Made by a program: the position numbers and the translations under genes
The notes under the pieces: model-generated
What the model saw: only the letters and a program-made list of their open reading frames with translations
Told to the model about the DNA's origin: nothing
The model's database searches: none
Origin: Caldisericia bacterium
GTDB lineage: Bacteria; Caldisericota; Caldisericia; B22-G15
NCBI GenBank assembly: GCA_026414995.1
Contig: JAOAHY010000006.1
Location: forward strand, 1 to 64,000
Reading direction: 5' to 3'
DNA: 64,000 nt
Shown: positions 3,270 to 41,703 of the stretch, piece after piece
Numbering within the stretch: the stretch's first letter is position 1
How the letters are laid out: each line of letters begins with the position of its first letter

Positions 3270-6200
3270 ATGGAGATAAAAGAAGTTATTAACTTCAATA
3301 AATTTATTTTTTCTAATTTTGAAATACCTGATTTATTACAATTTCAAAAAGATTCATTTTATAATTTTATTAATAAAAAAATACCAAAATTACTTGATGA
3401 AATATCACCAGTTGATACACCAAAAGCTATGGTTGAATTTTTTGATCCAAAAGTATTTCCTCCTGAACTTTCAGTTGATGAATGTAAAGAAAGAAAATTA
3501 ACATATGCAGGAACTTTAAAAGCAAAAGTTAGAATAACAAACAAAAGAACAGGAGAAATAAAAGAACAAGATGTTTTTTTGGGAGAGATTCCTTATATAA
3601 CTCCTCACGGATCTTTTGTTTTTAATGGTGCTGAAAGAACAGTTGTATCACAATTGATTAGAGCACCAGGTGTTTATTTCACAAAACCATCATCTGCTCA
3701 TTCAGGAAGAGTTATTTTTGAAGCAAGATTAATACCAGAAAGAGGTACATGGTTTATATTTGAAGTTGAATCTACAAATACTTTAGTTATTAGATTAAAT
3801 AAAGGCTCAAGAAAGCTTTACTTTCCAACTATATTAAGAGTTTTTAAAGAATTGAGCGATGAAGAGATAATGGATCTATTTAGAGAAAAAAGAAAAATAA
3901 AAGTAAATATTTCTGAGCTTGAAAAAAATCTCCCATGTACATTAGCAGAAAATATTTATGACCCAGCTACTGGAGAGATAGTTTATTATGATGGAGAAGA
4001 AGTAACAAAAGAAAAAATTTCTACACTATACGATTTAGGCATAAATAATTTAGAGATTTATAAAGATGTTGTTGATATAATTATTAAAAAAACACTTGAA
4101 AAAGATAATAATAAAACACAAGAAGATGCCATATTAGATATTTATAGAAAATTAAGACCTGGAGAAAGAGTTCTTTTAGAGTCAGCTAAAAATTTAATTT
4201 ATGTAACATTTTTTGATACAAAAAGAAATTATCTTTCTGATGTTGGAAGGCATAAAATAAATCAAAAATTTGGATTAAACCTTAAAGACAATATTGTTAC
4301 ATTTGATGATATAGTCGCAATTATAAAGCATGCAATTAAAATTAAAAATGGATTTGAAAAATTAGATGATATAGACCATCTTGGTAATAGATATGTAAGA
4401 GGAGTAGGTGAATTAATGGAAGTCAACATGAGATATGGACTTTTAAGAATGGTAAAAGTTATGAAAGGTAGAATAAGCACCTACTCTGAAGATATGTTTA
4501 CAGCACAACATCTTGTTAATTCAAAGCCGATTACAGCATCACTACAAAGTTTCTTTGGAACTGGACAACTCTCACAATTTATGGAGCAAACGAATCCTCT
4601 TTCATCTTTAACACATAAAAGAAGACTCTCTTCTATGGGGCCAGGGGGATTAACTCGTGAAACTGCTGGACTTGAAGTAAGAGACATACATTCATCTCAT
4701 TATGGAAGGATTTGCCCGATAGAAACACCAGAAGGTCAAAATATCGGTCTAATCAATTCATTAACAGTTTATGCAAGAATAAACGAGTATGGATTTATAA
4801 CAACTCCATATAGAAAAGTAATAAATGGTAAATTAACAGATGAGATTGTATATCTTGAAGCACTTGAGGAAGAAAATTATTATATTGCACAGGCAAATAC
4901 TCCAGTTAATAAAAAAGGAGAGCTATTAAAGGATAATAAGGGAAATATTTTAAATGATGGTTATGCAACAGGAAGATATAAAGGTGAAGTTATTGAAAAA
5001 ATTCCATTAGAAAAAATTCAATTCATGGAAATTTCACCGCTTCAAGTTTTTTCTGTATCAGCATCATTAATTCCATTTTTAGAACATGATGATGCAAACA
5101 GAGCTCTTATGGGTTGCAATATGCAAAGACAGGCAGTTCCTCTTCTTTTTCCTGAACCACCAATTGTTGGTACTGGAATGGAAAAAATTGTTTCAAGGCA
5201 TGATCCAAGTATTGTTATTTCAGAAATTGATGGAAATGTAAAAGAAGTATCTGGAGATAAAATAGTAATAAAAAATAAAAAAGAAGAAAGGATTTATGAA
5301 TTAAAGAAATTCGCTAGATCCAATCAAGATACATGTATAAATTCAAGACCAATTGTAAAAAAAGGTGATTATGTTAAAAAGGGTGATGTAATAGCCGATG
5401 GTCAAGCAATAAAAGATGGCATTTTATCTTTAGGAAGAAATCTTCTTATAGCTTATCTTCCATGGAGAGGTTATAATTATCAAGATGCTATATTGATTAG
5501 TGAAAGATTAGTAAAGGATGATGTTTATACATCAATCCATATAAAAGAATATATTACTACAGTAAGAGAAACAAAAGCAGGACCAGAAATTTTAACAAAA
5601 GATATACCTAATGTTGATGAATCTGAACTAAGAAATCTCACTGAGGAAGGTATTGTAAGAATAGGAGCAGAAGTTAAACCTGGTGATATTCTTGTAGGTA
5701 AACTTGCTCCAAAAGCTGAAGTAGATACATCTCCAGAATCTAAAATTTGGAGAGCAATGTTTGGTGAAAAAGGAAAAGATGTTGTTGATAATTCTTTAAG
5801 ACTTCCACCTGGTGAATTTGGAACCGTAATTTTAACTAAAGTTTATTCAAAGGAAAAAGGAGATGAACTGCCAGTAGGAATTGAAAAACTTGTTAAAGTC
5901 TTAGTTGCTCAAAAGAGAAAGATAATGGTTGGAGATAAAATGGCTGGAAGACATGGAAACAAAGGAGTTGTAGCTGCAATACTTCCTGAAGAAGATATGC
6001 CTTTTAGAGAAGATGGAACACCAATTGATTTAGTTTTATCACCACTATCTGTTCCATCAAGGATGAATATTGGACAGACACTCGAAACTATGTTAGGATA
6101 TGCTGCATATAAATTAGGATTAAGAGTTGAGATTCCAATTTTTTCATCTCCAACAGAAGAAGAAGTTCAAGAATGGTTAAAGAAAGTTGGTTTAGATATT

Positions 6201-36873: not shown

Positions 36874-38174
36874 GTATAAAATTTTACATTAAAACATTTG
36901 GATGTAAAGTAAATCAATATGATTCTCAACTTATAAAGGAAAATTTAATTCAGGATGATAATTTTGTTTCTACATCAGATTATAAGAATGCTGATTTAGT
37001 AATAGTAAATAGTTGTGTTGTTACAGAGAATGCAGAGGAAGAAGTTATTAAAAACATTAAGAAATTTAAAAATTATGCTACAGTAATAGTAACAGGTTGT
37101 TTTTTGGAAAATATGAAAATAGATGGAATATATTATTTACCATTAAAAAATGAATTAAACATAAAAAATTATATTTATGAAATTTTAAATAATAAGAATA
37201 AAGAAAGTGAAGTAAAAAATAAGGTTACATTTTTTGAAGGAAGAACAAGAGCATTTCTAAAAATTGAAGAAGGTTGTAATAAATATTGTTCATATTGTAT
37301 TGTTCCGTATTTAAGAGGTGCTGCAAAATCAAAAGAAATTAAAGTTATAAAAGAAGAATTTATAAATTTATTAAAAAATGGATATAAAGAAATTGTTTTA
37401 ACCGGAACTGAGCTTGGTTTTTATGGTATTGATTTAAAAATAAATTTAATTGAACTTCTAAAAGAACTTATTAAATTACCTTATGATTTTAGAATAAGAC
37501 TTTCTTCTATTGATCCTGAGTTTTTTAGTGATGATTTAATTAAATTTATAGGTGAAAATGAAAAAATATGTCCACATATACATTTACCTCTTCAAAGTGG
37601 AAGTGATAAAATTCTAACTTTGATGAGAAGAAGATATACTAAAAATTTTTATATTGAAAGAGTATTAAAGTTTAAAGAGTTTGTCAAAAATGGAACTATC
37701 ACAACTGACATAATTGTAGGTTTCCCTGATGAAAATGATGATGATTTTTATGAAACATTAGACATTATAAATAAAGTTCAATTTTTAAAATGTCATATTT
37801 TTCCTTACTCAGAGAGAGATGGGACTTTCGCATCAAAATATTTAAATAATAAAAGATTAGATGAAAAAATAATAAAAGAGAGGTTAAAGTTAATAAACAA
37901 AATAGCACAAGAGACAACAAATAAAGTTTTAAGTAATTTTTTAAATAAAGAATTAATTTTCTTAGGAGAAACCAAAAAAGAAAATTTCCTTTTTGGTTTC
38001 ACAGAAAATTATATTAGAGTTTTTATTAGTGGAATTCATGATAAAAATAAATTTTACAAAGTGTATTTACAAAATAAAAAAAATTTTGTAGAATATGGAA
38101 TAGTTATTTCTGAATTCCATTATGGAGTTCCAATAAAGAAGGAGGTGAGAATTTGCAATGCCAGCAGTATATAG
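36870..38174 (+). CDS. mtaB: tRNA t6A37 methylthiotransferase MtaB
   Basis: A 434-residue radical SAM enzyme: MTTase N-terminal cluster-binding domain (FYIKTFGCKVNQYDS, Cys12; VNSCVV; VTGCF), radical SAM motif CNKYCSYCIVPYLRG, and a short TRAM-like tail. It makes ms2t6A at position 37 of tRNAs reading ANN codons. It overlaps rsmE by 4 nt and rpsU by 17 nt. Confidence 0.93.
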   Translation: MSIKFYIKTFGCKVNQYDSQLIKENLIQDDNFVSTSDYKNADLVIVNSCVVTENAEEEVIKNIKKFKNYATVIVTGCFLENMKIDGIYYLPLKNELNIKNYIYEILNNKNKESEVKNKVTFFEGRTRAFLKIEEGCNKYCSYCIVPYLRGAAKSKEIKVIKEEFINLLKNGYKEIVLTGTELGFYGIDLKINLIELLKELIKLPYDFRIRLSSIDPEFFSDDLIKFIGENEKICPHIHLPLQSGSDKILTLMRRRYTKNFYIERVLKFKEFVKNGTITTDIIVGFPDENDDDFYETLDIINKVQFLKCHIFPYSERDGTFASKYLNNKRLDEKIIKERLKLINKIAQETTNKVLSNFLNKELIFLGETKKENFLFGFTENYIRVFISGIHDKNKFYKVYLQNKKNFVEYGIVISEFHYGVPIKKEVRICNASSI

Positions 38175-38319
38175 ACGTGAAGGCGAAGATCTCGATAGTC
38201 TAATAAAAAGATTTAAAAAAGAATGTGAAAGAGAAGCAATACTTTCTGAAATAAAAAAAAGAGAATTTTTTGTTCCTCCATCTGTTGAAAGAAGAAAAAG
38301 AAAAGGAAAAAAGAAATAA
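38158..38319 (+). CDS. rpsU: Ribosomal protein S21 (bS21)
   Basis: A 53-residue highly basic protein beginning MPAVYRREGEDLDSLIKRFK and ending in a KKREFFVPPSVERRKRKGKK-type tail, typical S21. GGAGGTGAGA lies upstream of the ATG inside mtaB. mtaB-rpsU order is conserved in Firmicutes, where yqeY normally follows; yqeY is absent here. Confidence 0.93.
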   Translation: MPAVYRREGEDLDSLIKRFKKECEREAILSEIKKREFFVPPSVERRKRKGKKK

Positions 38320-38338
38320 ATATAGGAGGTGTTAACTT

Positions 38339-39337
38339 ATAGAATCTTCTGAATTAAAAGAAAGATTTTTTTATCCATTCGTTAATGAAGAAGAAGCTGT
38401 AACCTTTTTAGGTTATTATAATGATTTAATTAAAGAATTAGAAAAAAATTTTAATTTAAGAATAAAAATAACAAGAGAGGGTTTAAAATTTTATTCTTCA
38501 GAAGATATACCAGAGGAACTAGATCAATTTATAAAAGATTTATTTGAGATTAAAAGAAATAAAAATATACTTTTGACAAAAGATGAATTAAAAAGAAGCA
38601 TAATTTCTATCAAAGAAAAAAATTATAAAATAACAAGAGAATTTTTTGTTGATGTAGTTTTTGTATCAAGTAAAGGTAAAAAAATTAAACCTAAAAGTGA
38701 GAATCAGAAAAAATATATTGAAATGATTAGAAAAAAAGACCTTGTTTTTTGTATAGGTCCTGCAGGTTCTGGTAAAACTTATCTTGCCATTGCCTCAGCT
38801 CTTAGTTATTTATTCGATAAAAGAGTTGAAAGAATTATATTGACAAAACCTGTTGTTGAAGCAGGCGAGAAACTTGGGTTTCTTCCTGGAACTTTTCTTG
38901 AAAAGGTTGATCCTCATTTTAGACCCTTATATGATGCTCTTTATGATTTAGTTGAAGTTGAAAAAATTACAAGATTAATTGAGAACAATATAATCGAAAT
39001 TGCACCACTTGCATATATGAGAGGAAGAACATTGAATGATTCATTTATAATTCTTGATGAAGCACAAAACACTACTTATTCCCAAATGAAAATGTTTTTA
39101 ACAAGAATGGGATTTAATTCTAAAGTTGTAATTACAGGCGATATTACTCAAATAGATATAGATAATCCAAAAGATTCAGGACTTGTTAAGGCAATTAAAA
39201 TACTTAAAAATTTAGATGAAATTGGAATTGTTGAATTAGAAAAAATCGATATTGTTAGAAATCCAATCGTTCAGAAAATAGTTGAAGCATATGAAAATTT
39301 TGAAAATTATAAGAAAAAAAATAAATTTGAAGATTAA
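38339..39337 (+). CDS. phoH: PhoH-family ATPase, predicted to start at an AUA codon
   Basis: A 332-residue P-loop protein. A KH-like N-terminal domain at about 1-85 (NEEEAVTFLGYYNDLIKELE, FNLRIKITREGLKF), Walker A GPAGSGKT (140-147), Walker B-type FIILDEAQN, and the PhoH core. The full domain reads through from ATA at 38339, which sits 8 nt after a perfect AGGAGGT (38324-38330); an in-frame stop is just upstream (38333) and no ATG, GTG or TTG occurs until TTG at 38573, which would remove the first 78 residues and has no Shine-Dalgarno. The total length fits the family (about 320). Possible RNA-related ATPase. Confidence 0.85.
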   Translation: MESSELKERFFYPFVNEEEAVTFLGYYNDLIKELEKNFNLRIKITREGLKFYSSEDIPEELDQFIKDLFEIKRNKNILLTKDELKRSIISIKEKNYKITREFFVDVVFVSSKGKKIKPKSENQKKYIEMIRKKDLVFCIGPAGSGKTYLAIASALSYLFDKRVERIILTKPVVEAGEKLGFLPGTFLEKVDPHFRPLYDALYDLVEVEKITRLIENNIIEIAPLAYMRGRTLNDSFIILDEAQNTTYSQMKMFLTRMGFNSKVVITGDITQIDIDNPKDSGLVKAIKILKNLDEIGIVELEKIDIVRNPIVQKIVEAYENFENYKKKNKFED

Positions 39338-41339
39338 TAAAGAAAAAATAATTATCAAATCTATACTAACTTTAATATTCTTTTCCTTTTTATTTTATGC
39401 ATTTTCACCTCCGTATATTTTTGTTCGAAAAGGAACTAAATTAAATAAAAATTTAATTTCACCAAAAAATTTAGAAGTTATTGATATAGAGAAGACTCAG
39501 AAAGAAATTGAAAAAGCTTTAGAAAATGTGCCAATTTATTATGAATATATGCCAGAAATTGATAAAGAAGTAATGAACAATATTAATAAAATTTTAGAAA
39601 TTATTGAGAGCTATAGAGAAAATCAAGGAAATACACTAGAAATACTTTTTGAAAGTTATGGAATAACATTTGATTTAGAATTATTAAAAGAAATTAAATC
39701 TAAGTCTAATTCAAATTTTATTAGATTTAAAAATAAGATTTTAGAGATAACTTCCAATTTACTTCAAAGTGGTGTTAAAGAAAGCGATTTAATAAATCTT
39801 AATGATAAGTTAAATTTAATCATAAAAGATAATGATTTTAATGACAATGAAAAGAAGATAACTTATATTATTTTAGAAAAAATATTAAAACCGAATTTAA
39901 TAATAAACGAAGATTTAACTAATAAAAAAAGAGAAGAGATTGTTAAGAGTATTAAGCCAATTATAAAAATTATTAAAAAAGGTGAAATTATATTTCCGAA
40001 AGGTACAATAATTACTGACAATGAAATAAAAATTTTAAAAGAATACAATTTGCTTTTTGCTTCAAAGGACCTATTCAATATTATTTTTATATTAATTTTA
40101 TCATTAACAATATCTTTTATTTTATATAATGTAATAAAAATAAATAACAATTATAGATTAAAAGAAAAGATTTTTATAATTTTAATCCTATTTATATCTA
40201 TACTTCTAGGAAAATTTATTAAAAATGTCACATTATTACCTATTTTTCTAATATCTAATTTAACAATTTTATTTTTTGATATTATAACCTCAATAATAAT
40301 TTTATTAATAGTAAATATTTTTTATACCCTATATTTTAATGATAAATTCATTTTAATTTTTTTGATTTTGTTCATATCAATCATATTTTCTTTAAAAACT
40401 AAAAAGATAATAAATATATCAGATTTTTTAAAAATTGGGTCTTTTGTTAGTTTAATGTATTTAATAGTTTATATTTCAATAGAATTTATTCAAAGAAATT
40501 TTGATTTTTCAACATATTTATTAAACTCAATTTATATAGCATTAAATCCTATAATTTCAATTCTAATACTTTTAGTATTTGTACCTTATTTAGAAAAAAT
40601 TCTTTCGATTACCACACCTATTGGTTTAGTTGAACTTTTAAATATAAATAATCCAATTTTAAAGGAATTTATAACAAGGGCACCAGGTAGTTATCAACAT
40701 TCATTAAATGTAAGTACACTTGCTCAAGTTGCAGCAGATGCAATTGGAGAGGATCCTCTTCTTGCGAAAGTTTGTGCTTATTACCACGATATAGGAAAAC
40801 TTGAAAGACCCGATTTTTTTATTGAAAATAATCCTCAATTTAACCCTCACGATTCGCTTTCTCCTTCATTATCAGCACTTATTATTATATCTCATGTTAA
40901 AGAGGGTGTTGAACTTGCTAAAAAACATAATTTACCAAAAATTATTGTTGATACAATCAAAGAACATCATGGTACAACATTTGTTACTTACTTTTATTCA
41001 AAAGCAAAACAAATTGACCCTCAAATTGATGAATCAACCTTTAGATATCCTGGACCAATTCCCTCTTCAAAAATATCTGGAATTATAATGTTAGCAGATT
41101 CTGTAGAAGCATCAGTTAGAGGTGAGAAAATTGAATTTGAAAGTTTTTCTGATTTTGTCAATGATGTTATAGATTCAAAAATTTCTGATGGTCAGCTAAA
41201 TAATTCAAATTTATCCTTTAAAGATATTTTAAAAATAAAAGATTCATTTATTAAAACACTTACATCGATGTATCATGAGAGGATTAGTTATGTATTCAAA
41301 AATAGAGATTTACGAGAAAGAAAGAAAAGTCCCTATTAA
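39282..41339 (+). CDS. pgpH: 7TM-HD domain protein, PgpH-type cyclic-di-AMP phosphodiesterase
   Basis: A 685-residue membrane protein: N-terminal transmembrane helix, extracellular 7TMR-HDED-type domain (about 50-260), seven or so hydrophobic helices (about 265-440), and a cytoplasmic HD domain with APGSYQHSLNVSTLAQ, CAYYHDIGKLERP and IKEHHGTTF metal ligands. PgpH homologues degrade c-di-AMP. The position phoH-pgpH-ybeY matches Firmicutes. The start is uncertain: TTG at 39282 (56 nt overlap with phoH), ATG at 39291 or a later TTG. Confidence 0.9.
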   Translation: MKHMKILKIIRKKINLKINKEKIIIKSILTLIFFSFLFYAFSPPYIFVRKGTKLNKNLISPKNLEVIDIEKTQKEIEKALENVPIYYEYMPEIDKEVMNNINKILEIIESYRENQGNTLEILFESYGITFDLELLKEIKSKSNSNFIRFKNKILEITSNLLQSGVKESDLINLNDKLNLIIKDNDFNDNEKKITYIILEKILKPNLIINEDLTNKKREEIVKSIKPIIKIIKKGEIIFPKGTIITDNEIKILKEYNLLFASKDLFNIIFILILSLTISFILYNVIKINNNYRLKEKIFIILILFISILLGKFIKNVTLLPIFLISNLTILFFDIITSIIILLIVNIFYTLYFNDKFILIFLILFISIIFSLKTKKIINISDFLKIGSFVSLMYLIVYISIEFIQRNFDFSTYLLNSIYIALNPIISILILLVFVPYLEKILSITTPIGLVELLNINNPILKEFITRAPGSYQHSLNVSTLAQVAADAIGEDPLLAKVCAYYHDIGKLERPDFFIENNPQFNPHDSLSPSLSALIIISHVKEGVELAKKHNLPKIIVDTIKEHHGTTFVTYFYSKAKQIDPQIDESTFRYPGPIPSSKISGIIMLADSVEASVRGEKIEFESFSDFVNDVIDSKISDGQLNNSNLSFKDILKIKDSFIKTLTSMYHERISYVFKNRDLRERKKSPY

Positions 41340-41703
41340 TAAGAAATTTTTAAAGAAAATAACAGATGAAATTCTTAAAAATGAAGGTTTTAATAAATAT
41401 GAAATTTCTATTGCTTATTTAAATAAAGATGATTTAAGAGATTTAAACAAAAAGTTTAGGAAACTTGATAGAACGACAAATGTTTTATCATTTATTTATG
41501 AAACAACGCCAGTACTAGTAGGTGAAATTGTCATTTCAAATTATAGTGTTGAGATAAAGAAAGAAAATTTTTTAAAACTATATATACATGGTCTGCTACA
41601 TATTTTGGGTTTCGATCATATAAAAAAGAAAGATAGAGAAATTATGAGAAAAAAAGAGGAAAATTATTTTAAATACTACAATGAAAAGCAGAAATTTAAT
41701 TGA
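41290..41703 (+). CDS. ybeY: Endoribonuclease YbeY
   Basis: A 137-residue metalloprotein with the zinc motif HGLLHILGFDH (HxxxHxxxxxH) and LDRTTNVLSFIYE. It functions in 16S rRNA 3'-end maturation and 70S quality control. The ATG at 41290 is favoured because GAGAGG is about 7 nt upstream; ATG 41275 is an alternative. The gene overlaps the end of pgpH. Confidence 0.92.
   Translation: MYSKIEIYEKERKVPINKKFLKKITDEILKNEGFNKYEISIAYLNKDDLRDLNKKFRKLDRTTNVLSFIYETTPVLVGEIVISNYSVEIKKENFLKLYIHGLLHILGFDHIKKKDREIMRKKEENYFKYYNEKQKFN

Follow-up and report, generated by a model that had tools for sequence, protein, structure and literature searches.

In Escherichia coli, the AUU start of infC serves the autoregulation of IF3, and the AUU start of pcnB is a natural non-AUG start that reduces expression. 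In Staphylococcus aureus, the AUA starts of infC, ccpN and citZ have been mapped by ribosome profiling, and extended Shine-Dalgarno (SD) sequences were noted for infC, ccpN and cvfC1; the AUU and AUA sites tested there gave ~10% of the expression obtained with AUG, with ccpN reaching up to 30% in rich medium, and the authors attributed this modulation to IF3 (PMC13009471). The PhoH-type ATPase of E. coli, YbeZ, binds YbeY, which acts in the maturation of the 16S 3' end, and the amount of IF3 on the 30S subunit increases when ybeY is deleted (PMC5101352). Very few natural AUA starts have been established in bacteria, and the phoH gene described here, from a Caldisericia bacterium, adds a candidate that is backed by a comparison across two genera.

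The phoH start region and its neighbourhood

We analysed a stretch of 64,000 nucleotides (the window) from a genome of 1.27 Mb in 58 contigs. An open frame of 332 codons on its forward strand (38339..39337) encodes a 332-residue PhoH, which was identified by a profile search (PF02562, E 1.5e-92, residues 115-319); the P-loop GPAGSGKT occupies residues 140-147, and the ATPase part matches structure 3b85 in a structure comparison. The original prediction had placed the start of this gene at an ATA codon, behind a close in-frame TAA and a perfect AGGAGGT and ahead of 78 codons lacking ATG, GTG or TTG, and direct reading bears out each of these elements. The order in the phoH frame is TAA (38333..38335), CTT (38336..38338), the inferred initiation codon ATA (38339..38341) and then GAA TCT TCT, and not a single in-frame ATG, GTG or TTG occurs between this ATA and the TTG at codon 79 (38573..38575). 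The AGGAGGT lies 8 nt ahead of the ATA within an extended SD, AGGAGGTG (38324..38331), a sequence that is present four times in the window, whereas shuffles would yield 0.39 copies. The ORF survey revealed no SD upstream of the TTG of phoH.

Another copy of AGGAGGTG (38140-38147, forward strand) is the SD of rpsU, which encodes the 53-residue ribosomal protein S21 (38158..38319, forward strand; PF01165 E 1.8e-14, TIGR00030) and is found directly 5' of phoH in all five members of the family considered below. The mtaB ORF extends 17 nt into the beginning of rpsU (window 38158-38174), which suggests a single mtaB-rpsU-phoH transcript. On the 3' side, again in all five genomes, phoH is followed by an ORF for a membrane HD-domain protein (39282..41339, forward strand, from the ORF list), probably PgpH-like as judged from its HD motif. 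The gene for the endoribonuclease partner of PhoH, ybeY, lies at 41275..41703 on the same strand, and its model TIGR00043 scores above cut-off in each of the five genomes.

Conservation of the ATA codon in five genomes

The family, one of AT-rich bacteria, consists of five genomes in two genera and is exhausted at that number; every one of them has phoH, and the protein identities to the window's PhoH are 91, 75 and 75% for the three genomes of the same genus and 68% for that of the other genus. The alignment of phoH starts in close relatives that the original prediction had proposed as a check gave ATA, not ATG, in all five: ATA-GAA stands at the equivalent position in each of these separately assembled genomes, always preceded by an in-frame stop at a distance of 1-2 codons and by AGGAGGTG at 7-8 nt. 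A sequencing or assembly error concealing an ATG (for example, ATA read for ATG), which had been named as a possible refutation for positions 38325-38345, could be suspected because apparent frameshifts exist elsewhere in the assembly (G000:C8 near 12438 and G000:C2 near 31172; G000 is the window genome). However, the recurrence of the ATA in all five assemblies, made separately and spanning two genera, rules out such an artefact, and we give this explanation practically no weight.

The five genes have diverged widely at synonymous sites, with dS of ~0.4-2 overall, ~0.8-1 when the species of the window is compared with the relative nearest to it, and 0.4 between G001 and G003. Among the 20 alignment columns that are isoleucine in all five genes, solely the start column is ATA in every gene; a second invariant column is ATT, and the remaining columns vary in codon. 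The ATA is therefore kept as a nucleotide triplet, as a start codon would be, with the proviso that five species provide only a limited number of independent observations of this conservation. The wider contig scan for relatives returned distant phoH genes only and none that was close.

The distance from AGGAGG to ATA, 9-10 nt in all five genomes, exceeds the 4-8 nt that is usual at ATG genes of the window genome, and a start at another non-canonical codon, the one directly upstream of the ATA, would reduce the spacing to 6-7 nt, nearer to the usual range. Nevertheless, that preceding codon varies (CTT, CTT, GTT, CTT and AGT) and differs from ATG by two or three mismatches, whereas the ATA is invariant; we therefore regard initiation there as very improbable.

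Translation could instead begin at the TTG at 38573, the first canonical start in the window's frame, or at another downstream canonical start, in which case the upstream frame would be untranslated or a decayed remnant. The relatives lack this TTG: the first canonical starts in the five species fall at codons 79 (TTG), 129 (ATG), 129 (ATG), 182 (TTG) and 31 (TTG), the one at codon 182, in G003, lying past the P-loop, and in none of the five is a canonical start compatible with a full-length PhoH. Codons 1-78 give dN 0.077 versus dS 1.00 (dN/dS ~0.08) between G000 and G002, and dN 0.027 versus dS 0.41 (dN/dS ~0.07) between G001 and G003; by these ratios, the 78 N-terminal codons are under purifying selection. 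A TTG start, which has no SD ahead of it, would also remove a whole predicted domain. The N-terminal 75 residues are predicted with fair confidence to form strand-helix-helix-strand-strand-helix (pLDDT 76-90), folded from residue 7, and residues ~4-78 would constitute a putative KH-like domain. The original prediction had spoken of an N-terminal KH-like domain, and the predicted topology is indeed KH-like; the name KH is a matter of topology only, as neither Pfam nor the PDB of solved structures returned a match for this part. Initiation at the TTG, which the original prediction had listed as a possible refutation, is thus ruled out as a conserved mechanism, and a downstream canonical start is, in our estimate, highly improbable.

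The proximity of rpsU raises a further possibility, namely that PhoH lacks a start of its own and arises by readthrough or frameshifting out of rpsU or a short overlapping ORF. The end of rpsU is 6-19 nt upstream of phoH, rpsU shares the phoH frame in G004, and an out-of-frame GTG is present inside the SD. However, the distance from the rpsU stop to phoH is variable over that range, and the frame of rpsU relative to phoH is 2, 2, 1, 1 and 0 in the five species, which rules out a conserved fusion of the two genes by readthrough or frameshifting; the GTG shares nucleotides with the SD, and the reading frame from this GTG closes at differing stops between species, whereas the SD stands at a conserved distance ahead of the ATA in all five. 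The probability of such an origin is as slight as that of a downstream start. Taken as a whole, the comparison makes it very probable that phoH starts at AUA throughout this five-genome family. Gene callers limited to ATG, GTG and TTG would shorten PhoH by 30-181 residues, and in one species the P-loop would be lost.

Within the same class, 13 phoH genes were retrieved from family f3; each has an ATG close to its N-terminal end, and the upstream stretch that was read contained no rpsU. The ATA therefore looks derived in the five-genome family. In a class-wide search, PhoH exceeded the family cut-off almost exclusively in families f1 and f3, and the sampled f2, f4, f5 and f6 genomes were without PhoH, with one marginal match in G020. 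Separately, in a UBP7 metagenome-assembled genome (L027), the phoH frame has no canonical start until an ATG 108 codons before the P-loop; the sequence preceding this ATG is conserved in a metagenome-assembled genome labelled Planctomycetales (L029), which has a TTG, and no SD is present. These two loci are a possible second instance of a non-canonical phoH start.

Decoding of the ATA codon and a survey for similar starts

The 16S rRNA of the window genome ends in GGATCACCTCCTTTC, and the phoH SD pairs with this anti-SD over 8-10 bp; the duplex amounts to -14.1 kcal/mol in the window and to -15.4 to -18.8 in the relatives. Decoding follows the standard pattern: the tRNA set includes three tRNAs with a CAU anticodon and a tRNA-Ile with GAU, and TilS is also present, so that internal AUA is presumably read as isoleucine. 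A search for a special initiator tRNA with a UAU anticodon found none, nor any other UAU tRNA; given the CAU tRNAs and TilS, the normal initiator must then read AUA with a third-position mismatch. This initiator tRNA (L050 210-284, - strand) is normal in its anticodon stem, with three G-C pairs, and its acceptor end carries U1-A72 in place of the usual C1xA72 mismatch. In G004 (contig C111), the TilS match, at 25.9 bits, does not reach the family cut-off, unlike those of the other four genomes; tilS may be divergent or missing in G004, or lost to an assembly gap.

A survey for other starts of this kind covered 853 kb, or 67% of the window genome, with 837 non-overlapping coding ORFs, and its first pass also took in parts of G002. 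The rule required that the N-terminal part look coding yet lack a canonical start, that a stop lie close upstream, and that a near-cognate codon be preceded by an SD. Two genes only were convincing among the 837 ORFs, phoH (ATA) and infC (ATT), and the ATT start of infC is shared by every one of the five genomes; the recovery of the textbook infC by the same rule therefore serves as a positive control. The infC locus of the window genome lies at G000:C14, about 4998-5570, on the - strand (L042; relatives L039-L041 and L044); across the five members, its ATT sits behind a G-rich SD, with the first canonical start only at codon 18-71 of the open frame, and G018 likewise has an ATT near the infC start (L043).

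The other survey candidates were rejected as low-complexity ORFs, antisense ORFs, ORFs with an ATG directly after a good SD, or frameshifted genes, of which there were two. One of the latter, at G000:C8 near 12438 (- strand, L052), is an amidohydrolase-like gene with an apparent N-terminal frameshift, owing to an assembly error or pseudogene formation; the other, at G000:C2 near 31172 (- strand, L091), is a sigma-54-activator-like gene (PAS, AAA and HTH domains recognized by eye) with an apparent frameshift, the second half of which has no canonical start codon.

Possible purpose and comparison with known systems

From these sequences, we infer actual initiation at the phoH AUA, its strength, its dependence on IF3 and its purpose. 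We propose that the ordinary initiator tRNA would read the AUA with its third position mismatched, and that the unusually strong SD helix (AGGAGGUG, 8-10 bp) would keep the AUA in the P site, offsetting the poor codon. The SD would thus hold the mRNA while the codon limits initiation, and it is plausible, by analogy, that weak initiation at AUA limits PhoH. Selection may retain the AUA because it would lower the synthesis of PhoH in comparison with that of S21, the abundant product of the preceding gene, and the chances that the codon is kept to damp PhoH synthesis appear to us evenly balanced. The purpose would be to control the ribosome-maturation pair PhoH-YbeY, through its dosage or through feedback, and simple dosage tuning without regulation could also account for retention.

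The AUA start might, however, have no regulatory meaning, being a slightly deleterious substitution that became fixed in the common ancestor of the family and was tolerable thanks to the strong SD. AT bias could favour the change from ATG to ATA; on the other hand, ATG is one transition away and should be readily regained if more PhoH were useful, whereas the ATA persists in all five genomes despite their wide synonymous divergence, and the sole other gene of this kind found in the 67% of the genome surveyed is infC. We consider this explanation unlikely but deserving of real weight; it opposes the purpose and not the start site, and its probability is not additive with those of the explanations weighed above.

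If, instead, the AUA is retained for control, it would render PhoH synthesis sensitive to IF3 and to the quality of the 30S subunit. In the fullest form of this proposal, phoH and infC would be a small IF3-responsive pair, in which start-codon proofreading throttles 30S maturation by PhoH-YbeY and the state of the 30S subunit in turn sets the supply of a maturation factor; we hold this to be speculative and rather unlikely. The idea that immature 30S subunits, by binding IF3 poorly, would raise PhoH through feedback is weakened by the increase of IF3 on the 30S subunit in the E. coli ybeY deletion, which would predict that AUA initiation falls rather than rises when maturation is under stress (PMC5101352). 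The phoH AUA poses the question of whether start-codon proofreading by IF3 controls genes besides infC, and a true IF3-responsive pair would make phoH the second translation-apparatus gene, after infC, under the control of a poor start codon.

The original prediction had described AUA starts as rarer than AUU starts, which is fair, yet those documented in Staphylococcus provide a precedent (PMC13009471). A close parallel is infC, which, like phoH, is a translation-apparatus gene with a conserved AUN start and a strong SD; its start is AUU in E. coli. In S. aureus it is AUA (PMC13009471). However, the E. coli infC codon is AUU and that of phoH AUA, and because PhoH, unlike IF3, does not belong to the initiation factors, it would not be expected to regulate its own synthesis directly by way of start-codon proofreading. 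The ccpN gene of S. aureus and Bacillus subtilis shares with phoH a conserved AUA and an extended SD, and its AUA has been shown to cut expression to 10-30% of that with AUG; ccpN, however, encodes a metabolic repressor in Bacillota, whereas phoH, with its predicted AUA start, is a ribosome-maturation gene 3' of rpsU in an unrelated lineage (PMC13009471). The AUU of cvfC1 and the AUA of citZ in S. aureus are likewise natural expression-reducing non-AUG starts, in genes other than phoH, and the citZ AUA is restricted to one S. aureus strain lineage (PMC13009471). With regard to gene order, the E. coli ybeZ-ybeY operon also encodes a PhoH-type ATPase near YbeY, and YbeZ and YbeY interact (PMC5101352); unlike in that operon, rpsU here lies directly upstream, a membrane HD protein is encoded between phoH and ybeY, and the start is AUA. 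Therefore, the combination of a weak codon and a strong SD is a known kind of start, and what is new is the gene, phoH, and the lineage in which an AUA start is proposed.
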